Of a stretch of DNA of 64,000 bases, positions 9,561 through 64,000 are shown piece after piece. The notes below the pieces were generated by a model. The model saw only the letters and a list, made by a program, of their open reading frames with translations, searched no databases and was not told where the DNA came from. The DNA is from Heterobilharzia americana (Eukaryota > Platyhelminthes > Trematoda > Strigeidida > Schistosomatidae). The first letter of the stretch is position 1. Every line of letters begins with the position of its first letter. The position numbers were made by a program, and so were the translations under genes. Location: the NCBI GenBank assembly GCA_944470555.2, contig OX104130.1, positions 52,671,491 to 52,735,490 of the forward strand, in the 5' to 3' direction.

Positions 9561-10159
9561 ATGAACGGCAATAGTGATCATCAATCTTAAGTCCACAATA
9601 TAGAATGAAAAAATGATTATTTAGCATCTGGTAAGACAAGATGTGTCACAATGTTTCAGAAGATAAACCATCAGTTAATACGTATATGTGGCCTGGCTAC
9701 ATCTTTACTGAATTCAGAAACATTTTGAAGAATCAAACAGTTTTTATTGAAGGCTTTCAATGGGCAGTTTTCATAGGAACTGGATTTTGATACACTGCAG
9801 GAGTAAAATCTTCACTTCTCTGTAAACTGATATATCTCATAAAAAGCATTTTGAAAATATTACCGTTTTACTATGCCTTAGGCAAATATTAATCAGTCAC
9901 TAAAATTAACAGTGAAAGAAGCCTACTAACTGAGGCTCTCTTCCTAGTCCCCTAAATGGAATGAGTAACTTATTCATATATGATTTCTGCACACTAGTTT
10001 ATACAGGTTTGAAACACTTTTGAATTATATTATTATTATTATTAGTCCCTTGGGTTCCTAATGGAACATAGGGCTTCACTAGCACGTCTCCAGTGAACTC
10101 TGTTCTCTGAAATCTTTTGAACCTGGCTCCATGACAACCCACAACCTCTCATTTCCTCC

Positions 10160-11660
10160 TCACACGATCTCCCCCATGTCACCCTCACCACGGACGCCTA
10201 ACTCGTCGCTTCCCATGGGGATTCCACTCGAGTGACTGGCCTGGCGCATGACGTCCTCATATGGTCTTCTCGGTGCATGCCCAATCCATCTCCACTCCCT
10301 TCCAGTGCATATTTGTTGAACGATAGGTTCTTGGTGGGTTCGTTCACAGAGTTCCTTGTTGCTTATTCTTGTTATTCTGACCATCTGATCTACAGTAACG
10401 AGCCAGCATAGGCAGTTGTTGATGAATGTCTGTAGTTTGTTGGAAATGCCTTTCGTAACTCGCCAAGTTTCAGAACCATACAGAAGCACTGACTTGACTG
10501 ACGTTGGTGTTGAAAATCCGGATCTTGTTCACGCTTTATGCTGAGTGCAGAAGATCTCTACACTGCTTTCAGGAAAATGAACGCCTGTCTTGATTTTCCG
10601 ATTCTGACTTTGACATCTTCGTCTGTGCCGCCACCTGTAGTTGAGACAGTGCTGCCTAGATAGGTGAAGGAGGTTACTTCCTTTAAGTTTCTCCTGTTGA
10701 TGGTGATTGGAGTTTGTTGCTGTTGTTGAAGTTGTTGGTGCAGTATCTTCATCACTTCTGTCTTCTCTATATTCACTTGAAGTCTTGTCTTCGCTGCCTC
10801 CCTCGCCTCTTCTGCCAACTTGCTAGTTTTCGCCTGTAGATGTTCAAGTTTGTGTGACATCAGACACAAGTCATCATTGGCGAAATCCAGATCTTCTAGG
10901 TTCTTTTCCGCAGTCCAGCCAGTGTATCCCCCTCTTCTCGCTCCCCACTGTTTGCTGCATGATCCAGTCGACCACAACACAATCAGGAATATCATGGAGG
11001 ATAGTAGGCAACCTTGTTTCACTCCTCTCTTCACTTCAAAAGCATCACTGAGCTTCCCATTGTGAATTACTTGGCCGGCATGTGGCATCTTCATATAGTT
11101 GTTGAATGAGGTTGATAAAGGTTTGTTGTATTCCGTTGTATTGAAGCAGTTTTCAAATTACCTCTCGGTCGACGCTGTTGAAGGCCTTCTCAAAGTCGAT
11201 GAAGTTGAGGTAGAGAGCTGATTGCAATTCTATGCTCTGTTTTATGATGATGCAAAGCATTGCAATTTGGTCCGCACATGATTTGTACTTCCTGAAACCT
11301 GCCTGTTCCGGTGGTAGTTTTGAATCCAGCACATCCTTAAGCCTCTCCAGGATGATGCAGCTTAATATTTTGCTTGCTCTGGGTGGACAGGAGAGTGATT
11401 CCTTGCCAGTTCTTGCAAACACTGAGGTCTCCCTTCTTCGGGAGTTTGACAAGGTAACCCTTCTTCCAATCAATGGCCAGGTACCCTCTCCTCCTTCCAC
11501 ACCTTCTGCAATAGTGGTGTGGTGTTAGCATGTACGCTGTTTTCTCTGCGTGTGTTTTCGGTGCCTCTGGCGGGATCCCATTTGGTCCTGTTGCTTTTAC
11601 ACATTTCACTAGCTTTATGGCTTTCAGGACTTCCACTTTTGTTGGAGGATTTATGTTCAC
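10160..11660 (-). pseudogene. Reverse transcriptase and C-terminal region of element A1
   Basis: Minus-strand frames in order: VKATGPNGIPPEA (11337-11660, fingers region), PPEQAGFRKYKSCADQI and LYLNFIDFEKAFNSVDREVI (11153-11500, first catalytic Asp block), DAFEVKRGVKQGCLLSSMIF and EDLDFANDDLCLM (10558-11094, the catalytic F/YxDD box with an extra Asn), FTYLGSTVS, then LLYGSETWR and WRWIGHAPRRP (10160-10489, C-terminal tail). The blocks lie in different frames, so no continuous protein exists. The FANDD wording recurs in copies A3 and A4. Confidence 0.85.
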
Positions 11661-12566
11661 TTGTAGTTCTGTGGCTGGGCTGTAGGTGGTATTTCTGGAC
11701 GAAGTGCAGATGGTGGTGATAGTGGTGGTCGATTCAAGAGCTTCTTGAAGTGGTCAGCCCATTGTTTCCTTTGTTTCTCTTCTTTCGTAATTAAATTTCC
11801 GTCATCGTCTTTTATTGGTTTCGTGTGCTCTGATCTCTTCCCAGATGCACAGTAACCTGGTTATTTGATACAATGTTGTCAGGTCTGTATCTCTCCTGCC
11901 TACAGCCTGTTCTGCTTCACTTGCCAGTGTTTCGTAGAAGTGTCTTTTGTCTTTGCGTGCACTCTTCTTCACTTCTTTGTCCAGTGAAGTGTTTTATACA
12001 TTGTGCTCAGTTCCTCTTGTCGTTGAGCATCCTTGCACTGGTTTATCTTCTGCTTCACCATCCTCCTCCACACAGGTTTCTTCAGGGATGTTCCTCGATA
12101 TCTCCCATTTTGTCTTGATGGCTGACTGGTGAGAAGATTTCCTTTGTAGTTTCGTTCCTCAGTTTCCGAGTGTTGTACTTGGACTGCGGTCTATCACCAG
12201 CTTCCTTGAAGGCTTTTAACTTGATTTGGAAGGTTCCTTGCACTAGACAGTGACTGGTCTGAACCTGCATCTGCTCCTCTTCTTGACCTTGTGTTAAGTA
12301 GACTGCGTCTCCATTTTCTTGACATTGAGATAAAGTCGGTTTGATTTTTGGTGTGTCCATCTGGTGAAATCCATGTCGCTCGCTTTGTGGATATCCTTGT
12401 GTCTGAACACACTGCCTCACCTCCAATCACCAAATCGTTGAATGCACAGAATTCTGCAAACAATTCTCCATTCTCGTTCATCGCCTCACCGAGCGCTTCT
12501 TGACCCATGGTTAGTTCTCTTCCTGTGTTGTCCTCTTCCAGTTTGGTATGCATGTCGCCCCACCCA

Positions 12567-13043
12567 TTAGAATTTTGATATCGCCAACTGGGGTTTGGTC
12601 TTGTCCAGTGTTGATTGAAGTTGTCTGTAGAATTCCTCCTCTTTCTTTTGCTCTGCATTATTTGTATGTGCGTAGAGTAGCACTGTACGATTGTGACTTT
12701 CCTTCCTTCTGAGTTCAATCCATTTTGCTGTGATGATCGTGATCCTGGAGGAGATTGGTTCCCACTGCATGAGGGAGAGCCTTCGATACTCTTGGGAGGG
12801 GGACATCATGATCGCCACTCGAAAACTCAGTGTGCTCGTGGTTGTCCTGTGGGTGACAGTGTCGGAGTAGATTATTGATTCTCCAGTTGACAGTTTGGAG
12901 AGTCCACTCCCATTCCATCTGCTTTCGCAAATTACAAGCACTTCAATGTGATACCTTCTCATCTCGTTTGCAATCTGGGCTGCCTTGCTGGGTTCAAACA
13001 TGGTGCGGACATTCCATGTCCCCACGTTTACTTTCACTTTCAT
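12567..13043 (-). pseudogene. Endonuclease domain remnant of element A1
   Basis: An open stretch of 158 codons starting MKVKVNVGTWNVRTMFEPSK, then IEVLVICESRWNGSG. These are motifs I and II of the exonuclease-endonuclease-phosphatase fold used by non-LTR elements to nick target DNA (Asn and Glu visible). The region frameshifts after about residue 70. A second frame at 12194-12718 carries later parts (GDMHTKLEEDNTGRE and RATWISPDGHTKNQTDFI, the latter matching the usual SPDG...IDHI block with Phe replacing the His). Catalytic function is lost because the domain is split between frames. Confidence 0.75.
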
Positions 13044-13290
13044 CGAGAGAGAGAAGACACATCGGCCTGGTCAATTGGCTTCCAGAAGGCAGGCTTTCAC
13101 CAACTGGCATCATTTCGCCTCTCCGATTCCAGCGAGGAATAAGTTTTTTTTGATATTTCGTTTGTGCTTTGAAGTTTGTTTAGCGGTTAGATTTGTTGTA
13201 GGGGGTAGGGTTGTTAGCCCTATGCCCAACCTTCCCTGTTCACCCGGGCTTAGGACGGCTAGTAACTAGTGAACTAGTTAACCAGCTGTT

Positions 13291-27660: not shown

Positions 27661-28318
27661 GTGTCGAATTCCATAAATAGTGTTGTAAATTCAAAGATGT
27701 AATGCTCAACATGATATACATGAAAAATGAATCACATGACAAATGTGACTGAAGACATCACATATATGATTTAAAGAATTCAATGGTAGTTCTCTAATTC
27801 ACATCTTTCATGTAAAGTCAAACAGCATTATTTTATCTTTACTGAACTTCAAAATCATCCTCATTCACGGATGAACAGTCACAGTACACACAGAGTTGCA
27901 GTCAGTAGTCAATCTGCTGTCACATCAATAAAATGCATCAACCATCAACTACATTATTCACTATTGATGATCACAGGCATACCTACAACCAACTGTTTGA
28001 TTGTGACTGTGCAATTCCAGAAGAATAATATGCCTACACCGATGCTTCGATATATCCAACTCTCAGACACTTCGAATGATACATGTCAGTGTTCAACAAT
28101 GAGGATTCATCACATCATCATCACTCATCAATGCTTCACATAATTCCATCTGAAGATGTACAGACATCTTGAGACCATGATATAGTCTGTCTCCGAATAC
28201 TGAATCTTTATGAGCAATTAATATACAACATTCAGTTAGACCTATCGTTTGATGACTATCCTCTCTTAATTGAGATGAAGAATTCTCAATCCTACTGACT
28301 ATGAGATAACGTTCTTCA
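27661..28318 (+). repeat. Left arm of a near-perfect 0.65-kb inverted duplication
   Basis: Nearly every base pairs with the right arm at 29372-30008. Position p matches 57690-p in the inner part and 57669-p in the outer part, because the left arm has 21 extra bases (within CAGTACACACAGAGTTGCAG near 27.89 kb). The few differences include two substitutions near 28263. An 84-codon minus-strand frame (28093-28347) is kept in both arms (QTIGLTECCILIAHKDSVFG block) but matches no family I know. Homology stops sharply at 28318 and near 27661. Confidence 0.9.
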
Positions 28319-29371
28319 TTTCTATCATTTCTATGAAGCTCAAACATTCGAACAGATTAGGTTGAACATTCTCAGAGATGCAAAAAGTGATAATTGCAAC
28401 TGAATTAATCAAGTTATCGTAAATCAACAATTAGTCACTTCATTTTCTTGTACGCATGATCGGATTTTAGTGGGTGACTTTTTCTATTGAAATTCCATAA
28501 CAGTTCAAAATAATTGTAAAATGTGAAGCAAAATTTAGTACTTCTTTTTTACAACTTATTGAAATAATCCTGTCAACCAACAACTGAACAACAAATAATG
28601 CTTTTCCCTTAAACTGGTTACAATGGGCATCTACTCATGCAGATTACCTCACCGTTTAGCATCAAGAACTGATAAGAATAACTTAGGTGTGAAGTGCTTA
28701 TTTCAGCAATCATTTTCACAGGGCTCTGTAGTTAGTTCATTTCACTATCAGGGTGTTTTTTTTATTTTAGTAGTTGCAGCTGATTATTTCTGTTTATTCA
28801 ACAAACAGTTCGTTAGTCCGTCCAGTCATGTACTGGTCACCCGATGGATTGGACAAGTTCTTTGGAGTAACCGAGTGCTTAGTATTTTTTACTAAAAGCG
28901 GAAATTTCTCATGAAAGCCTAACATTAGAAACGACTACGTGTTAAATGATTTCATGTGGTACCAATTTTCGCGAGCATTACATATATAATCATATTGTTA
29001 GGCAACAACAAGTCTGCTGTTAGCCACTTCAAGACAACAGAAACTCACTAAAGCTGCCAATAAACACACTTGATATTCAATTGAGATATGAAATCTCACA
29101 AATAATGTACAACTTCTCAACATCAATTATACTGAAGTGCATTTTCACGTGACGACCAAGTTTTATGCAGATACCACATGTTCCCTGCATTCGCATTGAT
29201 ACATGCTTCGATTTATAGTGTTGAGTGTGAGTTGTGCTTCATCAGACTACCGAATTATGTGTTAATTAGTGTGAGTCGAGAACAAACACTTTGGTGTCTC
29301 ATTATCGGTGAATGGTAATGAGTATTTGTGCTTATTGGAATCTGGAGTTGTTGTGCATACAATAATTTAAT
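28319..29371. other. 1.05-kb spacer between inverted arms
   Basis: Single-copy-looking sequence between the two arms of the inverted duplication. It has only short open frames and no recognised product. Confidence 0.6.
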
Positions 29372-30008
29372 TGAAGAACGTTATCTCATAGTCAGTAGGA
29401 TTGAGAATTCTTCATCTCAATTAAGAGGGAATAGTCATCAAACGATAGGTCTAACTGAATGTTGTATATTAATTGCTCATAAAGATTCAGTATTCGGAGA
29501 CAGACTATATCATGGTCTCAAGATGTCTGTACATCTTCAGATGGAATTATGTGAAGCATTGATGAGTGATGATGATGTGATGAATCCTCATTGTTGAACA
29601 CTGACATGTATCATTCGAAGTGTCTGAGAGTTGGATATATCGAAGCATCGGTGTAGGCATATTATTCTTCTGGAATTGCACAGTCACAATCAAACAGTTG
29701 GTTGTAGGTATGCCTGTGATCATCAATAGTGAATAATGTAGTTGATGGTTGATGCATTTTATTGATGTGACAGCAGATTGACTACTGTGACTGTTCATCC
29801 GTGAATGAGGATGATTTTGAAGTTCAGTAAAGATAAAATAATGCTGTTTGACTTTACATGAAAGATGTGAATTAGAGAACTACCATTGAATTCTTTAAAT
29901 CATATATGTGATGTCTTCAGTCACATTTGTCATGTGATTCATTTTTCATGTATATCATGTTGAGCATTACATCTTTGAATTTACAACACTATTTATGGAA
30001 TTTGACGC
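29372..30008 (-). repeat. Right arm of the near-perfect inverted duplication
   Basis: Reverse complement of 27661-28318, lacking 21 bp. It starts at TGAAGAACG (29372) and ends near TTTGACGC (30008). No target-site duplication, tRNA-like head or microsatellite tail was seen at the outer edges, so it does not look like two opposed SINEs. Confidence 0.9.
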
Positions 30009-31500: not shown

Positions 31501-31629
31501 AGATAGTATCATTAACCCTCACATAACAGGTGTAGCATACCATCCACTGCACAAAAATAAACAAAGCTCCTGATTTCAATTTTACAATAATTGACTCAAC
31601 TCCAGTATGACAGTCAATAAAAAAACGCT

Positions 31630-32226
31630 TATTGTTATATTATTATTTGCCCCTTGGGTTCCTAGGGCTCCAGTAGCACGTCTCCAGTGAACTCTGTTCT
31701 CTACAATCCTTTAAACCTGGCTCCACGACAGCCCACAAGCTCTCATTTCTTCCTCACACTATATCCTCCATGTCACCCTCGTCTCGTATGCCCAACTCGC
31801 CGTTTCCCATCTGAGTTCCACTCGAGTGCTTGGTGCGTGATGTCCCCAGTTGGCCTTCTCAGTGTATGCCCAATCCATCTCCACTTCCTTCTGCATATTT
31901 GTTGAGTGATACGTTCTTGATTGGTTCGTTGCCAGAGTGACTTCCCTGTTGCATATTCTTTCTGGCCATCTGAGCATCAGTAATGAGCCAGCGCAGGCAG
32001 TTGTTGATGAATGCCTGTAGTTTGTTGGAAATCCCTTTCGTAAGGCGTCAAGTCTCTCAACCATTGCATAGAAGCACTGACTTGACTGAATTGTTGTTGA
32101 AAATTTGGATCTTATTCACGCTTAATGCTGAGTGCGGAAGATCTCTGCACTGGTTTCAGATTAATGAACGCCTGTATTGCTGTCTTTCCTATCCTGGCTG
32201 GCTTTGACTTCCTCGTCTGTGTCGCT
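31630..32226 (-). mobile_element. Family A RTE-like element, 5'-truncated copy A2
   Basis: The minus strand holds only the last about 0.58 kb of family A: the C-terminal tail (WRITRVT... in broken frames, related to the VTKGISNKLQTFINNCLCWL and WRWIGH blocks of A1) and the 3' end TTATATTATTATTTG on the plus strand. Homology to A1 stops at about 32226 within the ACAGGTGGCGGC region, a typical 5' truncation point of target-primed reverse transcription. Confidence 0.8.
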
Positions 32227-51737: not shown

Positions 51738-52021
51738 GAATTCATCACAAACAGATATCAGCTGGAGGAACACTGAAAACAGACGAGTCCTTGGCATCTG
51801 TTTCTTTCCAGTATGGGACTCCTCGGCATTGGACCATTGGATTCCTCCCCAGTGGCTTAGTAGTAAAGTGCTGGCCACCCAAAATCTGAAGGTCTTGGGT
51901 TCGATCCCTGGCGAGGTCATGGGTGCGAACTGCTGATGGATCCCATACTAGGATGAAATAGCTGTTTAGTGCTCCCAGGTTTTCAGTGTTCCTCCAACTG
52001 ATGTCAGTTCACGATGAATTC
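51738..52021. repeat. Head-to-head inverted family D SINE pair
   Basis: Left arm (minus, 51738-51834) and right arm (plus, 51925-52021) pair with p = 103759-p at both ends (GAATTC/GAATTC outer, TATGGGA/TCCCATA inner), without net indel. The 90-nt middle holds the plus-strand tRNA-like head (CAGTGGCTTAGTAGTAAAGT, GGGTTCGATCCCTGGCGAGG). The (TTA)n tail of element A3 follows within 15 nt. Confidence 0.75.
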
Positions 52022-52034
52022 CAAAGTGGATTTA

Positions 52035-52035
52035 C

Positions 52036-52079
<44 letters not shown>

Positions 52080-52097
52080 GTATTAGTATTATTATTT
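52035..52097. repeat. (TTA)n tail of element A3
   Basis: About 20 TTA units with a few variants, directly joined to GTCCCTTGGGTTCCTAG, the conserved 3' end of family A. Confidence 0.9.
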
Positions 52098-53633
52098 GTC
52101 CCTTGGGTTCCTAGAGAAACATAAGGCTCCAATAGCACGTTGTCATTCCACTCTGTTCTTTGCAGTCTTTTAAATCTGGCGCCACGACTGCCCAGAGGCT
52201 CTCAATTCTTCCTCACACGATCTCCTCCATGTCACTCTCGCCTAGGACACCCCACTCCTTGATTCCCATTCCTGTTCCCCTCGACAGCCTGGCCTGGAGC
52301 GTGATGTCCCCAGCCGGTCTACTCAGTGTATGCCCAGTCCACCTCCACATTGTTCTGCATATTCGTTGGACAGTGGGTTGTTGGTTGGTTCGTTGCCAGT
52401 CAGCCAGAGTGAGTAAATTTGTGGCTTATTTTTTCTGGCCACCTGATCTTCAGTATCGAGTGAGTGAGCGTAGGCGGCAGCTCTTCATGTATGTCTGTAG
52501 TTTGTTGTAAGTGCTTTTCGTGAGGCGCCAAGCCTCTCAAACATACAGAAGCACTAACGTGAGGTTTTTGCTGAAATTTCGGATCTTGTTCAAGCTTTAT
52601 GCTGAGTGTAGTGCAGAGGAGTAGATCTCCACAGTGATTTCGGGTTAATAAGAAAAGCCTGTCTTTCAGAGCCTGGCTTTGACATCTTCATCTGCACCTC
52701 CGCCACCTGTGGTTGAAATGATGCTGTCTAGGCAGGTAGGTAGGTGAATAGGTAAAAAAGAGTAAATTCCTTCAGATTTCTCCCGTTGATGATGATTGCA
52801 GCTTGTTGTTGATGGTGATGTTGATTGGGTATCTTCATCACCTCCGTCGTCTCTACCTTCACTTGAAGGAAATTCCGTCTCCGCTGCCTCGTCTCTTCTG
52901 CCAACATGCTAGTTTTCACCTGTAGATCTTCAAGTTCCTGCAATATTAAACATAAATCATCGTTGGCGAAATCCAAATCTTCTTCTAGGGTCTTATTATC
53001 GGTCCAGCGTACACCCCTCTTCTCACTACTCACGGTTTGCTGCATGATCCAGTCAACCACAATCGCGAAGATAATGGGTGGTAGTAGACGGCTTTGTCTT
53101 ACCCCTGTCCTCACCTCAAAGGCATCACTGAATGGCTTTCCATTATGAATCACTCGGCATGTGGCGTCGTCATATAGTTGTTGAATGAGGTTGATAAAGG
53201 TTTGTGGTACTCCGTTGTGTTGAAGCAGCTTTCTGCCAAATTACTTCTCGGTCGACGCTGTCAAAGGTCTTTTCAAAGTCGATGAAGTTGAGGTAAGGTA
53301 GAGATTTGACTGCCATTCTATACTCTGTTCTATGATGATGCGTAGCGTAACGTCGCGTTGTAATTTGATCCGCAAATGACTTGTTCTTCCTGAAGGCAGC
53401 CAACCAGCCTGTTCCAGTAGTGATTTTGAATGCAGAGCATCTTTTAGTCTCTCCAGGATGATTCGGCATAATATTTAGCTTGCTTTGGGTGGACAGCAGC
53501 ATGATTCCTCACCAGTTCTTGCAAAGACTTAGGTCTTCCTTCTTTGGAAGTTAGACATGGTAGCCCTTCTTCCAATCGATCGTCAGGTACCTTTCTTTGC
53601 TTCCAAACCTTCTGCAGTAAAGGTGTGAGCATA
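52098..53633 (-). mobile_element. Family A RTE-like element, 5'-truncated copy A3
   Basis: Minus strand, about 1.5 kb. It starts (5') near 53633 inside the reverse transcriptase and runs through YLNFIDFEKTFDSVDREVIW (about 53.24-53.30 kb), DAFEVRTGVRQSRLLPPIIF (the usual QGCLLSP block changed to QSRLLPP), EDLDFANDDLCLI (about 52.98 kb), TTEVMKI, to the 3' end and (TTA)n. Frameshifts split the RT. From 53615 to 52674 it appears identical, base for base, to copy A4 (62719-63660), but outside that tract it diverges strongly. Confidence 0.88.
52674..53615 (-). repeat. Inverted near-identical tract (partner 62719-63660)
   Basis: Position p equals the complement of 116334-p throughout. All open frames, on both strands, recur at mirrored coordinates with identical translations, including disabling frameshifts. 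I saw no internal difference by eye. Identity drops abruptly at 52673 and becomes patchy above 53615. Confidence 0.92.
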
Positions 53634-53859
53634 TGGTTACTAGAAAACAATTTTTAAAGCAATACTAAAGTTTAGAAACACCTGAAGTCATTTTTAGTTT
53701 ACAGGAAATCCTTCGATTTCATGAAAAATTTAATCGGGGTGTTTGGATGACAATTACTGTAGACGACCCTATTCAGGTAGGTCGCGATTCATCCATCCAG
53801 ATCAACCTAGGACCAGGCATTACTGCCTCAAGATCCTATTTGCCACACCTCATATCAGT

Positions 53860-54990
53860 ATATCAAGTAAAAAGGTAGCGAGATGCAAGATGAAGATAAG
53901 AGAATGCAGTCAGAAGAAATATAAAGTACGAAAAGAGAGAAATGATGAATGAGAAAGTGGTGAGATTCGGCATAGCATCGTTAAGATGAGGATAATGTAT
54001 GTGTGCATCTGCGCCACTGACATTGGTTCTGAGCCATATCACCTACAGTCTCCAACCACTGGTTCCTCTTGTCCTACGGACCCCAACCGACTAGTCTGCA
54101 TCATCCCGCATGGTTCAAACTAACAGTCAGAGACTTCATACATTGGTGCCATGTTTTAGCCTGGCTACCTCGGGTCTTTTTCCAGCCTGGATATACTTCA
54201 GCCAACATTTTGTGACGAGGCGATCGGCGACTAGGCATACGTAACACGTGTTCCAACCATCTCACTCGGTGAAGGTTCACAACCTGGTCAACCAACTTAC
54301 CTCTTCTCCCTAAAACTCCACACCTGACTTCTGCGTTGCTCACGTGGTGACACTACGGAATACGGCGGCCTATACTACGAAGGCGACTGTGGTCAAACGC
54401 TTGAAGCCTTCCCATATCTTCCACCTTCAGTGGCCACGTTTCACAGCCATACAGTAGAAGAGAGCAAACTGCAGTGCAGTACATGCTACCCTTGATAGAC
54501 AATCGGATATCAAGTCGACGCCATAGGTGTCGTTTGTTGGCAAAAGCTAACTGAGTCTTTTGTATTCGTGCAGAGATTTCACCGGCCACTGAGCCACCAG
54601 GGCAGGGCTGACCCTACTTCTCAGGTGAGTGAAATCGTCAACACACTCAACCACTTCACTCTCTGTTATTAGCCGCGGTAATGGACCATTGAAGACCAAT
54701 CGTGGAGCACCAATTTACGTTTGGGTGGCGAGAAACGCATCCCAAACATTCTCAAATTGCCACTCAAGGTGTTCAGAAGACTCTGCATCTTGTCAGTATC
54801 TTCACTTAACAGGACTATGTCATCTGCATATTTTAGGTCTGACGAAAATTCTCCACCATTTAGGTCAACGTCTGTGTAATCAGGTGACGAGAGGGAAACA
54901 TCCATAAGAATACCTATGATGAGATTGAATAAGAATGGAGAGAGTGGGCACTCTTGACGGACACTACTCAACGAGTACAGTACATTGATA
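53860..54990 (-). mobile_element. Family B RTE/SR2-like retroelement, 5'-truncated copy
   Basis: Minus-strand frames: VRQECPLSPFLFNLIIGILM and DLKYADDIVLLSEDTDKMQS (54669-54971, catalytic YADD intact), GEISARIQKTQLAFANKRHL and LLYGCETWPLKVEDMGRLQA (54353-54589), LHRVRWLEHVLRMPSRRSPR and KKTRGSQAKTWHQC (54101-54343), then the 3' UTR. It is the least decayed family B copy here, but still frame-shifted and lacking the endonuclease and the first half of the RT. Confidence 0.88.
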
Positions 54991-57900
54991 ACTAATCAAA
55001 GTATGTTCTTCAACGACTAAAATGACGTATGATTAACCAGAACACTCAATACTATCCATCAAGATTCATTTATTTAGACTTGATTGCACAATTTAGCAGA
55101 AATGGTGAAACCAGTTGTAACTACTTTGATTAACTTTGATGTTACACCCCGAAAAAGTACTGAAGCATGCCTTTCAGCTCACTTAACGGTTCCAACTTAG
55201 TGACTGGTGTGCAGAGCAAGACTAACCTCACCACAAGCTGATATAAAAGTAAGCCATGCTTTACTTTTCTTGCAGTGACTTTCACCTTTCTGTGAGCTGG
55301 GGTTACTTGTAGAGTACTGTTATTGATTAAATAGGATGCAAAAACTCTTCTAGTGGCATCAAAATCAATTGATAGCAGGTATACTTGTGAATTGTGTGGT
55401 CTAAAACTGTTTCAGTGATATGTAGTGAAGTTGACACTAAACTCGGTGGCTGAACTGGGTTCAGTAGCACATGATTTGATAAGATTGATACACCGTAATC
55501 TATTGCCGACTATTCCAAGTTCCAGCTGAATGAGTATCCATTATGACAGACCTGTTTACCAACTGATTAGTGTATATGTTTTAAACAATGTCAAGGTTTC
55601 AGAACGAAGATCACTAATGAAATGAAATGCTTACTTATAGACAAAGATGTCTCTAAGATAAAATTAATTATTATTATCTAACCTTTAGATAACAAGTAGA
55701 CAATCATGAGTTACACAGAGGTTTTCAATTGGCCAACAAAGTTTGTACAAGGTTAGAATTTTATCCACGAGGGGTGTTCTGTGGCTTCCAAAGCCTTGTG
55801 CAGAGTTACCACAGCTTATACTGAATCTTCTGTGAAGAATCACAGTGCAACTGGATGTAACGCTAAACTTAAATCGCCAGTCTATAGTTCTGCATAAAAC
55901 TGTCAAACCAGTTGTGAACTCAAAAATGGTTTTCACTATTCCTTTAATTATGAGACATGTTTCTGTTTTAGTAGGGGGATTTATCCAAGAAAAGGCAGAC
56001 ACAAGAAATGTACTAAACATTCGAATTGTTTCTGTTGTGTTCACAGGCATGTTATTTCCGTCAAAAAAAGTTTTTAGTGATACCAAATTGTGGATTATTC
56101 ATTTAATAGCTTCTGTGATGTAAAAAGGGGCTAACTGAATGTTACATTTATGTATATGAGTAGCAATTTTGACTGGTAGAGCAGTTCTGTTTCCCCTTAG
56201 TCAGTTTCGAGTGACTTCGTGTACCTCATTGCTCATTTCTCATGGTGATGTACTAATGATTCGAAGGCTGCTCCCTTTAGTTCCATCACGATGCATTTTA
56301 TCCTCCTATTTTTATCACCATTACCATATGTAAAGCTTGCAGCGTTTTGTGAGAACGGTTTCAGCTGGTCTAATTTAAATCAAATTAGTCTTTGTCCCTT
56401 TATGACTCGTTAAGAATTGAATGTAAGGGTATGAACAATGAACAGTAGAGTTTTTCTCATTTTCATAGTATCTTATTCAGCCATTTTCTAGCTAGTGTGA
56501 AGTTGAGATCTAACTACCACAATGACCCTACAGTTCAATCAACTGGGGATTTTAATAGTTTGGCATAGTATGAGTTATCCTGCATGAGATTTACCCGTGA
56601 AAGAATTCCCAGAAGTTTTCAGTCGGAGTTTTTTCTGTTTTGCTTCCTAATGGATAAAGCAGTGCCTTCTACGAATTATCATTCTATTCAGTTATCACAT
56701 GGAACATTGGTTTCTACTTAAACTTGAACAGAATCGTCAGGCATCGGTAGGATAATAGTTAGTATGATTTATTTGTTTCAGAGTAAGCCGAAGTTTCCAG
56801 GATGCCTAAAACTTATTTCACGATACTCTGCACTTATACATCGAATGAACAGTTCAGATTAGGTGCAGTTTGTACAGCTGGAAACACTTAGTTCTTTATA
56901 GTTGACAGAACATAGTAAGCAACAGAAGAAAATATGTGATGAACATAAAATAACCATAGTCACTAAGAGAAAAGTTGAATAGTAGTCCCTAGCCATCAGA
57001 TGTTTATTTAAAAACTTAAGAGATTCATACATTTCGTGAAAACAGACGAGCTGAATAATCTGGTCGACTATATTCTCAATTTAGTTTGGAACTTTGTAGG
57101 GATTTGTTGATTTCAAGTTAGCATTCATTACTGGCTGACATCAGTTTGAAGAAGGCCGCACTATATCGCAAATCAAAAGAAGTAAAAGCATGTGGACAAT
57201 TGATTTCTGGCCCAGTAGCTCATTGGTGATGTAATAGCGGTGAAACTTGGTTTCGAGTTAGATCCGTGATGGAGTCACTGGTAGATACTGTTCTTCAGCT
57301 GGTTTTCTAACTGATACTAGTTTGTGATAAACATTAGTTTGAAATATTTTCCTGACCACTCACATCAACTAAAAAGAGCGATTTTAACCGATATACTGTG
57401 CTTAGAGATAATCACTCACGTCCTCATACCTCTTTTCCAGGGGAAGGCATATTACTAATTCCTTGTAGAATGTTGATTCAGCTTTTTCCCTGGGTATAGG
57501 AAGTGCTTCTCATCAGATATTCCATCTTTCTTTCCTAAAAGCAGTCAGTCAAGCAGTCAGTGTACCAACTACTTAGCTTCCCTAGTTTTAAAGCACCCAG
57601 TTTGGCATTCTGTTGCCAATAACAAACTGGATGAGTGGTCATATGTATTTCTTTCCACAGCAGAAATCATAATGCAGACGGTAGCTGCTATTTAATTGGA
57701 GGCAGTCGTCACTACGGTGTATCTGTAGCCTTGAAGGGACTGATGTTGCTCCTGAGATTCGGACCAACGTCATGCAGCGTTGTAATCCGCTACTTTACGA
57801 CAGCTAACATCCATCAAGGCGAGTCACTATGGTTATCCTTCAAGTTTAGTTTCCACATTGCAAAAATGTTCAGTAGAATTTGGTCAACACTCAGGACTAG

Positions 57901-58477
57901 ATAAAATGAAGTTAGATGGTATATGGGTTAGGTGCTCCGATCCCTTAAATATTGGCAACTTACATTGGTTATGATTAAAAGTTCTTTCCATTTATAAGGC
58001 AGTCAAATCTAGGATATAAGTGCAATCATGAGCACGAAATCTATCTGTACCCTCAAGATGTGTTTATTTCCTGACATTTAGGATAGATAGAGAGTTATCA
58101 CCTGCAAATTCTTATGTTTTGTTGAGAATAAGTTGAGAAAAGCAGGTTGGTACCTAACATTACCTGTTATCAAGTCTTTCTTCCTGTATTTTCAAGTTAT
58201 TTGACATGAGAAAGGCGGTTGCACTTTAAAATATACTCAAAAGTTAACTGTACCAAATAAATATAGAAAGACTGACAGATCTATGTCACAACAGATTATA
58301 GACTAGTTGCATCTACTTTTTTTTCAAGTAAGCTAGGCTCCACGGATAAGCATCCAGAACTATATAGGCATTTTCCTTGGGAAATGTAGAGAATTTTGAC
58401 TCAAGGATGAATAAAGACTGATTGTGGAACCTAGAATAAACAATCTTTTCTATTCAGGGCTTATCAGCTAGCCGGAG
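54991..58477. other. Intergenic, no recognised gene
   Basis: Includes two antiparallel open frames at 55685-56123 (133 and 92 codons) without recognised domains, and a partial family D-like tail near 57100-57160 (minus strand) followed by a tRNA-like relic near 57215-57270. Otherwise AT-rich DNA. Confidence 0.4.
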
Positions 58478-58560
58478 TTGCCTTTCGGTGGCCAGTGTCT
58501 CTACTTGGATTGAAACATCACTCCCTGGGGGCAGGTACATACAACCAGGGTTATAAATAA
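58478..58560 (+). repeat. Hammerhead-type SINE relic (ribozyme part lost)
   Basis: CTTGGATTGAAACATCACTC, CTGGGGGCAGGTACAT match the region between the tRNA-like head and the ribozyme of this SINE family; the CUGANGA and GAAA segments are not recognisable. Confidence 0.45.
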
Positions 58561-58615
58561 GATGTCCAGCGACCTACTTTTAACAGTATTTAAGTGAAAC
58601 ATTTTGATCAGCTGG

Positions 58616-58618
<3 letters not shown>

Positions 58619-58663
<45 letters not shown>
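58619..58663. repeat. (AT)n microsatellite
   Basis: About 22 AT units between two opposed hammerhead-SINE relics. Confidence 0.96.
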
Positions 58664-58665
<2 letters not shown>

Positions 58666-58689
58666 TGTTCGGATGCCAATAATAGCTGG

Positions 58690-58835
58690 TGGCCAGCAGT
58701 GGAATTCAGGACATACATTCTGTCATATCTAGGACTCCCCACGTAGATGTACCTGCTCCTCAGTGAGTGATGCTATTCTCACTCAAACTGGAGTCTAGAC
58801 TTCACTGCCTCAAGCACCAAAAGGCTTGTTGTGTG
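58690..58835 (-). repeat. Hammerhead-type SINE relic
   Basis: The minus strand reads CAGGTACATCTACGTGGGGA, then GACAGAATGTATGTCCTGAA and TTCCACTGCTGGCCACC. Flanks and the GTC triplet fit the family, but CUGANGA has become CGTGGGGA and GAAA is lost. Inactive. Confidence 0.6.
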
Positions 58836-59017
58836 GAGAGTGTAGTTAGATGTCATAGCTTGTAGCTTCTCGTTGTTGATTGAACTGAACTGATCACCCA
58901 CTACTGACATACGGACACCTAGACAGGCACCCTGACATTGCCAGGAATTTAGACTTGACCCTAATGATGTATAACGCCAAACTATACCCGTCTCATAGGA
59001 CATAATTTTCACGACTC

Positions 59018-59105
59018 AGTAGTTCAGTAAATAACGCTCTGGCGTTTGAAGTGATGCGTACTGCATTCAAGTCTCAGTAGGAATAATGTCATCTTATTCC
59101 AGTTA
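59018..59105 (+). repeat. Hammerhead-type SINE, head only
   Basis: CAGTAGTTCAGTAAATAACG, CTCTGGCGTTTGAAGTGATG and CATTCAAGTCTCAGTAGGAA match the tRNA-like head; it is truncated before the ribozyme. Confidence 0.55.
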
Positions 59106-59839
59106 AAATACTTGTTTGTCAATAAATTGGTCTTCTTCTAACGAAATGAAGTTTTTGTTGAAGTTGTAGTTTGACCTCCGTTAAAGATTATTGATGGTGT
59201 GATACGACACTAAGTGATAAGGTAGACTTGTTGAAGTTAATTTTATTCAACGGAAGTAAATCACCTGTACGTTTCATATGGATGAAAATTCTTTCACCAC
59301 AACATCATATACAGCAGAAAAAGAAAACTATTAGGGAAGAGTTTGATTCACTGACTACTTCATCATGTCCTGTAAATTAGTGAATCTCAGATTATCTACA
59401 TTCAATGAGAAAGGTAATAGTTTATTGACAACTATCAAGTGGTCATGGATTCCAATTTCAAAAGAAGAGTATTATTGCTTGTACTACCTTCTAGTGTGGT
59501 GTGGATTAATGTCCATGCAGAATAAAGTTTATCATTGGCTAGATTCTGGAGGACCATATGAGTTTCAACTAGGTCATAGTATCTGAGTTGGAAAAATTGA
59601 TTGTAGTGTCAACAGTAAAAACGATATCACAAAGAAAGTCTCATGATGTTGAAAATGATTATACAACTCATAAGTTGCCACTTAGATACGCTTGTGATGC
59701 ACTGTAGAGGTTCGGAGTTCAGTCTCAAGCGAACTGTTCTTACATTTTTGCTGGACATGAAACCTATATTGATTTCAAATTATACTGTGCTTCAGATAAG
59801 CACAATCTTCTGTTCCTCTCCCAAACACAAAGATACACA

Positions 59840-60060
59840 CTGACTAGCCACTGGAGGGTTATCAACTTACTGTTGTCCGGTCGTAGGTATTGAAAGGATT
59901 CTGTCGACAATTTTGAATTTAGGCTATCGAACTAGAAGACTCACCATCGCGACGAACTGGGATAACTGTTAGTTATGTAGAGGGATTTGGCGGAAAGTCT
60001 TGAACCTAAGTTTTGTGCTTGTAGTCACAGTCTTCCTACCGGATCCTTCCACTTAAGTAA
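59840..60060 (+). repeat. Dispersed repeat family E copy
   Basis: GACTAGCCACTGGAGGGTTA, AACTAGAAGACTCACCATCG, CGACGAACTGGGATAACTG and CTAAGTTTTGTGCTTGTAG follow the order of the 9.15-9.56 kb copy. Confidence 0.6.
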
Positions 60061-60224
60061 CATCTGTCCCAATGAATCACGATGGTTTGTCTCCTAGTTT
60101 GGTGTTCATACAGCAAAATAATCGACAGAATTCGATCAGAACTCTAAACTAGATAGAATGAAGTTTATTACTCTTCAGTGACCAATCAGTGGACGTAACG
60201 CAGTCCTACAGGAGGCCAGTCGCA

Positions 60225-60380
60225 GTTTGAATAGTTCAGCGGTAACTTATCATCTAACTGCACACTGGTCAATGTGGGTTCGGATCTCAGAGGAGACACT
60301 ACTCCCTTGAATTACAGATACGTCTTGCTGATGAGTCTAAGCAAGAACGAAACCTAGGTCCAGAAGGCCCCCCTGGTGAG
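60225..60380 (+). ncRNA. Hammerhead ribozyme candidate in a SINE, core motifs intact
   Basis: tRNA-like head with GGGTTCGGATCTCAGAGG, then CTGATGA (60328-60334), stem II GTCT/GAAC with one mismatch (C/A) and a wobble, GAAA (60349-60352), mini stem III ACC-TA-GGT, and cleavage triplet GTC (60358-60360). All invariant core segments (CUGANGA, GAAA, NUH) are present, and stem III stays complementary although its sequence differs from the usual CGCGCG. Stem I (GTCTTG with CAGAAG) is weak. This is the best candidate for residual self-cleavage in the window. The class is known from schistosome Sm-alpha SINEs. Confidence 0.65.
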
Positions 60381-60837
60381 AAATAAAAGGTTAACTTTTG
60401 AGTACTATTGAGTACTATTTTGTCAGCCTTATCGACTTGAATTCTTGATGAAAAAATATTTCTTTAAAGTGAAAGAAGCAAATTATCAAGTCTGTGATTA
60501 ACCTACTAGAGTATATGGAGGAAGTTCACTAACACGTAGTACTAACTTTCTTTGGCAGACTCACTCTTCTGTAGATATGAAATGCTACAAAATACGAACG
60601 ATGCAGACGACAGAACTTTTCGTTTTGATAATGGCTCATGCAAGGCTATTCTGAGAATCAGTGAAAGTATTGGTGATCACGTGTTTTAAAAAATATCAAT
60701 AAAACAGTGGTAAGAAAAATTAATGAAAGTTAATTCAATGAAGAAAAATGGTGATACCAATAAATCAGGTTCAACAATGCAACCTTGTAGGTCGATGAAC
60801 TATTTTTAATATATATACTTAATCCAAAACCTCGCCT

Positions 60838-63800
60838 AGTTAACTAGTTTACTAGTTACTAGCTGGTGCTAAGCCCGGGTAAAGAGGGAAGGTTGGGCAT
60901 ACGGCTAGCAACCGTACACTGGAAAACCAATCCAATCGCTAACGAAACTCCTAAGCACAAAGAAAATATAGAACGTAAAATTAAACTTATTCCTTGCTGG
61001 AATCGGAGAGACGAAATGACGTCAGTTGGTGAAAGCCTTCGGGAAGCCAGTCGACCGATGTATCCTCTCGATGAAAGTGAAAGTAAGGATAGGGATATGG
61101 AATGTCCGCAATATGCTTGAAGCTGGCTGACTGGCTGGCAAGGCTGCCCAGATTGTAAAAGAGATGAGAAAGAATCTGCAGATGGAATGGAAGTGGGCTC
61201 TCCAAACTGTCAACTGGAGAGTCAATAATCTACTCCAATATTGTCACCCAGACAACAACCACGAGCACACTGAGTTTTCGAGTGGCTCTCATGATGTCTC
61301 CAAGAGCATCGAAGGCCGTCATGCAGTAGGAGCCAATCTTCTCCTGCAGGACCATGACCTCATGATGGATTCAATTCAAAAGGAAGGTAAGTCACAATCA
61401 TGCAATGCTACGCTGTGCAACTACAAATAATCCGAATCAAGAGAAGGAGGAATTCTATAGATAACTGCAATCAGTAATGGACAAGACCCCACCTCAGAGG
61501 TGACATGAAAATCTTAATGGATGGGGTGACATGAATGCCAAACTGTGAGTGGACAACACAGGAAGAGAACTCATCATCATGGGTTGAGAAGCACTCGGTG
61601 AAGTGAATGAGAACGGAGAATTGTTTGCAGATTTCTACGCATTCAACGATTTGTTGATTAGAGGCAGTGTGTACAAACACAAGGATATTCACAAGGCAGC
61701 GACATAAATTTGATTTCACCATTCACCAGATGGACACGCTACACTAAAAATCAGATGACTTCATCTGAATGTGGAGAAAGTGGAGACGCAGTCAGTCTAC
61801 TGGACACAAGATCAGATGAAGAAAGGGAGCAGATGTAGGTTTACACCGCTCACTGCCTAGTACATGAAACCTACATTGAAAATAAAGTTGAAAGTTTTCA
61901 AAGAAGCTGATGATAGACCACACTTCAAGTTCAACACTCAGAACAGAAACTGAAGGATGAAACTACAAAGATATCTTCATGTCAGTCAGTTAGTAATCAG
62001 GAAAAAGTGGGAGATATTGAGCAACATCCCTGAAGGAACTTGCGTGGAACTCTGTGAAAGAGACATGGAAGGAAACCTGCACAACCGTGTTAGGGAGGAA
62101 GAAGAGATAAGACAATGAATGGAATGGATCAAGACGGAGACATGAAAGGTGATAGCGCAGGGAGAGTACGATGGTGAAGCAGAAGATGAACCAGTGCAGT
62201 GCAAGGATGAACAATGAAAAGAGAAACTGAACATAACCTATAAAACACTACACCGGACAAAGAAATGAAGAAGAGTGCACGTAAAGACAAAAGATACTTC
62301 TTCGACATACTTGCAAGTGAAGCAGAACAGGCTGCAGGTAGGAGAGACAGAGACCCGACAAAATCATATCGAATAAACAGGTTTATATCTATCTGGGAAG
62401 AGATCAACGCAGATGAAAACAATGAAAGATAGTAAAGAAAACATAGTTACCAAAGAGGAGAAACAAAGGAAACGATTAGCTGACCACTTCAAAACACTCT
62501 TGAATCCAGCATCACCACAACATACAATTCATCCAGAAATACCACCAGCAACCGCAGTATTGCCAGTGAACACAAGCCCTCTGACAAAAGCTGAAGTGAA
62601 GTCCTGAACACCAAAAGTTGCTGAAATCCAGGAAAGCAGCAGGACCAGATGGAATTACACCAGAAGCACTGAAAACAGACTCAGAAACATCAGCAGCGGA
62701 CATGCTAATACCTTTACCGCAGAAGGTTTGGAAGCAAAGAAAGGTACCTGACGATCGATTGGAAGAAGGGCTACCATGTCTAACTTCCAAAGAAGGAAGA
62801 CCTAAGTCTTTGCAAGAACTGGTGAGGAATCATGCTGCTGTCCACCCAAAGCAAGCTAAATATTATGCCGAATCATCCTGGAGAGACTAAAAGATGCTCT
62901 GCATTCAAAATCACTACTGGAACAGGCTGGTTGGCTGCCTTCAGGAAGAACAAGTCATTTGCGGATCAAATTACAACGCGACGTTACGCTACGCATCATC
63001 ATAGAACAGAGTATAGAATGGCAGTCAAATCTCTACCTTACCTCAACTTCATCGACTTTGAAAAGACCTTTGACAGCGTCGACCGAGAAGTAATTTGGCA
63101 GAAAGCTGCTTCAACACAACGGAGTACCACAAACCTTTATCAACCTCATTCAACAACTATATGACGACGCCACATGCCGAGTGATTCATAATGGAAAGCC
63201 ATTCAGTGATGCCTTTGAGGTGAGGACAGGGGTAAGACAAAGCCGTCTACTACCACCCATTATCTTCGCGATTGTGGTTGACTGGATCATGCAGCAAACC
63301 GTGAGTAGTGAGAAGAGGGGTGTACGCTGGACCGATAATAAGACCCTAGAAGAAGATTTGGATTTCGCCAACGATGATTTATGTTTAATATTGCAGGAAC
63401 TTGAAGATCTACAGGTGAAAACTAGCATGTTGGCAGAAGAGACGAGGCAGCGGAGACGGAATTTCCTTCAAGTGAAGGTAGAGACGACGGAGGTGATGAA
63501 GATACCCAATCAACATCACCATCAACAACAAGCTGCAATCATCATCAACGGGAGAAATCTGAAGGAATTTACTCTTTTTTACCTATTCACCTACCTACCT
63601 GCCTAGACAGCATCATTTCAACCACAGGTGGCGGAGGTGCAGATGAAGATGTCAAAGCCATGATCGGAACGACAGCAAGATAGGCGTTCATTAACCTGGA
63701 ACTAGTGTGGAGATCTTCTGCACTCAGCACAAAGAGCAAGATCCGAATTTTCATCACCATTTCTGTCAAGTCAGTGTTGCTATACTGTTTAGAAACTTGG

Positions 63801-64000
63801 CACGTTACGAAAGGGATTTCCAACAAACTTAAGACATTCATCAACAATTGCCTACGCTCTATGCTGAAGCTCAGATGGCCAGAAGGAATGAGCAACAGGG
63901 AAGTCACTTTGGCAACTAACCAACCAAAAAGCTATCGTTCAACAAATATGGGGAAGAAGAAAGTAGAGATGGATTGCGCATGCACTGAGAAGACCATATG
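60838..64000 (+). mobile_element. Family A RTE-like element, plus-strand copy A4 (runs off the window)
   Basis: Starts GTTAACTAGTTTACTAG (60838), as A1 does at its 5' end, but without the tRNA-like head. The endonuclease region begins near 61069 (MKVKVRIGIWNVRNML) and is soon disrupted, with a local duplication CTGACTGGCTGGCAAGGCTG and an internal deletion compared with A1. RT blocks follow: RKAAGPDGITPEALKTD (62618), LPYLNFIDFEKTFDSVDREV (63035), DAFEVRTGVRQSRLLPPIIF (63200) and EDLDFANDDLCLI (63350). The 3' end lies beyond 64000. Multiple frameshifts; non-functional. Part 62719-63660 is the inverted twin of A3. Confidence 0.88.
62719..63660 (+). repeat. Inverted near-identical tract (partner 52674-53615)
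   Basis: See the partner entry: collinear over 942 bp, spacer 9.1 kb. The first mismatch is at 62718 (C against T in the mirrored partner), with several more just beyond. At 63661 the sequences part completely although both continue as diverged family A DNA. Confidence 0.92.

Follow-up and report, generated by a model that had tools for sequence, protein, structure and literature searches.

Probable recent gene conversion between two neighbouring inverted retroelement copies in Heterobilharzia americana

Introduction

Neighbouring Alu elements are homogenised by non-allelic gene conversion, with an effect that declines with distance, given as about 10 kb (Aleshin and Zhi 2010, as cited in PMC6598467 and PMC8230782). 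In Taenia solium, four conversion cases have been detected among ta-TRIMs with GENECONV (PMC4558846). The arms of sex-chromosome palindromes are kept alike by gene conversion (PMC7023750). Here, we describe two inverted copies, A3 and A4, of a retroelement without long terminal repeats (non-LTR) in a 64,000-nucleotide stretch of the trematode Heterobilharzia americana (G000:C4:52671491-52735490, hereafter the window; the assembly is 665 Mb in 337 contigs). The two copies are diverged but have a tract of 942 identical bases in common, most probably the result of recent non-allelic gene conversion.

The A3/A4 pair belongs to a known kind, conversion between neighbouring retroelement copies. Judged by the passages of the cited sources that were available to us, Alu conversion in primates is the closest parallel: there too, neighbouring dispersed copies are homogenised, and the effect declines with distance. 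In H. americana, however, the copies are long and of the LINE (long interspersed nuclear element) type, the near-identical segments measure 0.9–2.3 kb, adjoining identity is about 72–92%, and long exact runs link copies separated by as much as about 73 kb. The ta-TRIMs likewise show statistical conversion tracts among retroelement copies of a parasitic flatworm, but they are miniature LTR-type elements of a tapeworm, and the same passages of PMC4558846 mention no restriction to neighbours. Like the sex-chromosome palindromes, A3 and A4 are inverted local copies probably made alike through conversion, whereas their arms are old insertions that are identical only within the element. The present case stands apart by the length of its tract, the low adjoining identity, the occurrence of both direct and inverted pairs and a reach of tens of kilobases. 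Among the top-listed matches of our literature search we found no report of neighbour conversion in trematode LINE-type elements, though such reports may exist.

Results

The tract. The two segments match as reverse complements at 942 of 942 bases with a constant coordinate sum of 116334 (Table 1), as a first-pass annotation made from the letters of the window had claimed. Mismatches begin at 52673 and 53616. On the 3' side, A3 and A4 stay in register but are diverged: 243 of 312 aligned bases are identical in the best local alignment, identity over 564 columns is 0.720 if each gap run is scored as a difference, and the longest exact runs are 11–12 bp. On the 5' side, homology spans only 17 bp (0.824), because A3 is 5'-truncated there, and flank alignment found no relatedness between the upstream flanks beyond these 17 bp. 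The tract thus has its 5' limit 17 bp inside the end of homology and its 3' limit within the element. The annotation had placed diverged sequence of the same family just outside the tract; this holds at 52673/63661, where the first mismatch is followed by in-register sequence at about 72% and the border is as abrupt as it had described, but at 53616/62718 it is true of 17 bp only. Two marks of gene conversion are therefore present: near-identity in register within otherwise diverged paralogues, and abrupt borders outside which no non-homologous flank has been duplicated. The separation of about 9 kb given by the annotation is also correct.

The reading frames in the tract carry the same interruption in both copies, leaving identical 170-aa stop-to-stop frames. 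RVT_1 had no match in these frames at E<=0.001, nor at E<=1, and the homologous frame of copy A1 retains it (6.2e-07), which agrees with the earlier observation that the two copies are disabled in the same way. If the tract were only as alike as the adjoining element sequence (72%), 942 consecutive matches would have a likelihood of about 10^-134, and at 83% of about 10^-76; the segment score was reached in 0 of 1000 shuffles. Chance is therefore excluded as the source of the identity; the annotation had argued that independent decay cannot give it.

Search for other donors. We searched the genome with the tract and scored the best 40 of 19,622 candidate places, picked by similarity to the tract. 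These gave 41 matches: 100% for A3 and A4, 77–82% for the other 38 places, and 72% for a short second piece. A third, near-identical copy that might have been the donor was not present among these 40. A tract that is simply identical throughout the family, which the annotation had named as grounds for dropping its reading, is rejected for the scored places. Among annotated proteins, none of the 16 listed is identical to the tract, and the best H. americana match is 73%.

Proximity. For every pair of the 40 scored places (dropping the 72% second piece), we computed the longest exact common run. Pairs less than 200 kb apart had exact runs of at least 100 bp in 16 of 18 cases and at least 200 bp in 14 of 18, with a median of 493 bp. 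None of the 762 more distant pairs reached 100 bp: 0/11 at 0.2–2 Mb (maximum 78, median 65), 0/121 farther apart on the same contig (maximum 51, median 32) and 0/630 on different contigs (maximum 55, median 31). The rate of homogenisation thus falls with distance in this similarity-selected set. Copies as far as about 73 kb apart have long exact runs in common, and 123-bp runs extend to a separation of about 116 kb. The two exceptions below 200 kb are A3 and A4, each compared with the copy at C4:52763812. The 16 long-run pairs (9 inverted, 7 direct) are grouped in 8 clusters, so they cannot be counted as independent events. We also compared 27 copies or copy pieces with one another: 18 of their 27 local pairs have a run of 123 bp or more, and none of the 323 non-local pairs has one above 76 bp.

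Mosaic pairs elsewhere. We scanned 15 pairs for the best segment, with 1000 shuffles each (C1, C4 and the like are contig labels; L001, L009a, L028 and the like are labels of extracted loci or copies). Besides A3/A4, near-identical segments beside diverged element sequence were found in L019/L020, L009a/L009b, L016/L017, L015/L016 and L015/L017. In the inverted pair L019/L020, about 72 kb apart, identity is 0.842, then 0.989 over 2,273 columns, then 0.791; in L009a/L009b, also inverted, it is 0.916, then 0.998 over 2,023 columns, then 0.858. The corresponding values are 0.765 over 17 columns, 0.955 over 2,306 and 0.891 for L016/L017, and 0.889, 0.960 over 668 and 0.878 for L015/L016; all four segments were reached in 0/1000 shuffles. 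L015/L017 (0.887, then 0.952 over 498, then 0.866) was matched in 1/1000. The pairs L012/L013 (11/1000), L012/L014, L013/L014, L021/L023 and L024/L025 are alike across nearly their whole common length. Distant comparison pairs gave 926/1000 (L018/L026), 189/1000 (A1/L016) and, as a weak signal over a 133-column segment, 10/1000 (L015/L018, 0.8 Mb apart); the unhomogenised pair A1/L028, about 82 kb apart, gave 563/1000.

In eight further local pairs, from four clusters, the flanks beyond the aligned block aligned no better on either side than the best of 20 shuffles, which 1 of 16 sides equalled. This test covered the first 500 bases of flank, on one side only for L024/L025, with the block ending at the element end or at one copy's truncation point; L010/L011 and the pair at 27.6 kb of the window were left out, and two L009 rows used flanks still inside the element. 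As no flank alignment exceeded the shuffle maximum, segmental duplication is rejected for these eight pairs. It is rejected for A3/A4 as well, because a duplicated segment would not lose its identity in register within the element.

Unselected sequence. Searching a contiguous 124 kb around the window and 60 kb of C1 at a minimum of 88% identity and 100 bp gave 7 local pairs (3 inverted and 4 direct, two of which have a copy in common). Between the two samples, a search space of comparable size, there were no pairs at these thresholds. A3/A4 is missing from the list because its alignment runs on into diverged sequence. The 124-kb stretch had no match of at least 90% and at least 120 bp in 119,511 bases of remote loci. 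One repeat at 92% locally also matches the remote locus L010 at 88.5%; the pattern is thus not strictly local in every case.

The element. The retroelement is about 3.4 kb long, is non-LTR and has a (TAA)n tail. Its protein relatives carry RVT_1 and DUF6451; one of them, P0002, matches RVT_1 at 1.4e-31, and its best solved relatives include LINE-1 and R2 proteins. From its size and tail, we provisionally call the element RTE-like. With RTE-like non-LTR retrotransposons it has in common the length of about 3.4 kb, 5' truncation, the (TAA)n tail, target-site repeats and a reverse transcriptase akin to those of LINE-1 and R2. For the endonuclease, the Exo_endo_phos match in the 5' frame of A1 falls short of the cut-off (E=0.072). 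Target-site repeats are clear in 6 of 13 other copies (own scores 10–14) and unclear in 7 (3–6); automatic tail trimming cut L024 and L027 badly in this test.

Discussion

Interpretation. The evidence for recent non-allelic gene conversion between neighbouring, inverted and independently decayed copies is the exact identity, the in-register diverged continuation on the 3' side, the nearby end of homology on the 5' side, the absence of a third donor among the scored places and, in the set examined, the restriction to neighbours. Recent ectopic conversion or template switching, proposed in the first-pass annotation, is thus supported as the best explanation. The event would have begun with a double-strand break or a stalled fork in A3 or A4. 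The broken end may then have paired with the inverted neighbouring copy, copied 942 bp from it and rejoined its original locus; synthesis-dependent strand annealing and template switching are the candidate pathways. Copying by template switch leaves the same trace as ectopic gene conversion.

Zero differences in 942 bases limit divergence since the event to at most about 0.32% (95% upper bound), which is the only age estimate used, as we found no calibrated rate for dating. The transfer perhaps ran from A4 to A3. Measured against the columns on which 13 other copies are in agreement, the tract differs at 8.7%, the 5' parts of A4 at 9.4% and 10.4%, the A4 3' part at 12.1% and the A3 3' part at 13.9%. 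With p values uncorrected, the tract differs from the A3 3' part at p=0.005, from the A4 3' part at p=0.065 and from the A4 5' parts at p=0.66 and 0.30. This pattern fits A4 as the donor, weakly.

Several observations weigh against conversion, or against extending it beyond this pair. The sequence of one assembly is the basis, and the state of A3 and A4 before conversion is not seen. Identity beside the tract is low for homologous recombination, and the unconverted copies A1 and L028 have only 36- and 51-bp runs in common with A3/A4. In rodent cells, the minimum segment is about 200 bp and the rate is strongly reduced near 80% identity (PMC3924818), though the passages of that source do not exclude conversion below this minimum. 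Around the window, A3/A4 is the only homogenised pair of the 10 among A1, A2, A3, A4 and L028, the other nine having runs of 15–79 bp; all 9 local pairs without long runs in the 27-copy set lie here. Proximity is therefore not sufficient for homogenisation. Because the 40 scored places were picked from 19,622 candidates as those most like the tract, they cannot give the genome-wide share of affected copies. Finally, L012/L013/L014, L021/L022/L023 and L024/L025 could fit nearby sister insertions as well as conversion.

Alternatives. Local retrotransposition of one source would give such sister insertions without conversion, and several other local pairs are indeed about 97–99.6% alike over their common length with unrelated sequence beyond. 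For A3/A4 we give this explanation hardly any credence, because sister insertion cannot produce the in-register diverged 3' continuation. L019 and L020 are each flanked by target-site repeats of their own (scores 14 and 12, against a cross mean of 5.0 with a standard deviation of 1.27), yet are near-identical only in mid-element. Repair of one copy from complementary DNA (cDNA) of the other is very improbable. Conversion through cDNA has been discussed for retroelements, citing yeast work, in the passages of PMC4558846. A cDNA template could work at any distance, however, and in the examined set homogenisation is found only between neighbours; A3 and A4 are, moreover, both decayed.

An assembly fault, in which a chimeric join, a fold-back read or over-polishing put one tract into the other locus, is improbable, and fits poorly as the source of the tract. 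Our analysis uses the assembled sequence rather than mapped reads, and inverted near-identical arms are a classic site of assembly errors. A faulty 3' join would nevertheless have had to keep register within sequence of about 72% identity where exact runs are no longer than 11–12 bp, and polishing errors would not keep to neighbours as the long runs do. A similar mosaic joins L019 and L020, and their separation of about 72 kb exceeds ordinary accurate long-read length. Conversion with crossover, which is compatible with the best explanation, would have inverted the 9.1-kb spacer and exchanged the 3' flanks of A3 and A4; we regard it as unlikely, if less so than the other alternatives. The 5' flank of A4 scores 9 against the 3' flank of A3, as it does against its own 3' flank, and its match to A3 ends beside the element start, the site of target-site repeats in other copies. 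Cross-comparisons of unrelated flanks also reach 9–10, however, so that all scores are within noise, and for A3 its own match (6) is marginally better than the exchanged one (5). An inverted pair such as A3/A4 could plausibly drive inversion of the spacer, as the annotation had suggested.

Significance. As an example of conversion between neighbouring copies, A3/A4 is clean and datable, with one visible partner. Conversion beside about 72% identity is relevant to the stringency with which mismatch repair keeps diverged repeats from recombining. If neighbour conversion is common, divergence dating of transposon copies and repeat-family trees would be misled in repeat-rich flukes. A broader reading, which we regard as tentative and rather doubtful, is that neighbouring repeats in this schistosomatid genome, in more than one family, have repeatedly been copied over one another, whether direct or inverted and at separations of tens of kilobases, despite an unusually high divergence of about 8–28% in the sequence beside the tracts. 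If true, either the rejection of mismatched strands would be relaxed or template switching would be frequent, and repeat ages and subfamilies would partly reflect neighbourhood instead of ancestry.

Features of the window and other local repeats

Table 1. Positions of the retroelement copies, the identical tracts and a separate duplication, in window coordinates
Feature	Position	Strand	Evidence
942-bp tract in copy A3	52674..53615	-	942/942 = reverse complement of 62719-63660
942-bp tract in copy A4	62719..63660	+	With the A3 tract, sole 100% pair among 40 scored places
9,103-bp spacer between the tracts, taking in the A4 5' part	53616..62718	.	Coordinates
Copy A3, 5'-truncated non-LTR retroelement	52075..53632	-	Aligns with A4 62702-64226; (TAA)n tail at low-coordinate end
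Copy A4, near full-length	60828..64000, on to ~64226 past the window end (read in L001)	+	Alignment, tail
A3 part 3' of tract, in register with A4, ~72%	52075..52673	-	Alignments
A4 part 3' of tract, diverged from A3	63661..64000	+	Alignments
Copy A1, same family, not homogenised with A3/A4 (longest exact run in common 36 bp)	10024..13285	-	Alignment, run comparison
Copy A2, 3' fragment, same family, not homogenised with A3/A4	31629..32219	-	Alignment, run comparison
Left arm of separate local inverted duplication	27663..28321	+	Alignment
Right arm of the same inverted duplication	29369..30006	-	659 aligned positions with 4 mismatches and a single length difference of 21 bp

Directly 3' of A3, positions 51740-52035 have the look of a short repeat derived from transfer RNA, with what we take to be a B-box-like motif; A3 may have inserted in or beside it. 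Within L011 (7529-8805), one element copy holds an array of about 1.3 kb of exact 8-bp repeats, which is absent from the neighbouring, otherwise near-identical copy.

The separate inverted duplication in Table 1 is not an A-family retroelement. Its arms lie about 1 kb apart, have flanks that are unrelated by eye and had no further match in the local and remote sequence searched. A third local inverted pair lies beyond the window, at L047 4453-5523 and L048 6713-7785 (window coordinates 88453-89523 and 100713-101785). Its copies, 11 kb apart, are 97.8% identical over 1,074 aligned positions with abrupt borders and unrelated sequence beyond; the sole other match to this repeat in the sequence searched is 88 bp at 74%. 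The C1 sample (L051-L056, C1:60000001-60060000) contains another repeat family, about 800 bp long, in which some neighbours are 90–94% identical and others 70–77%, with remote matches listed at 66–84%.

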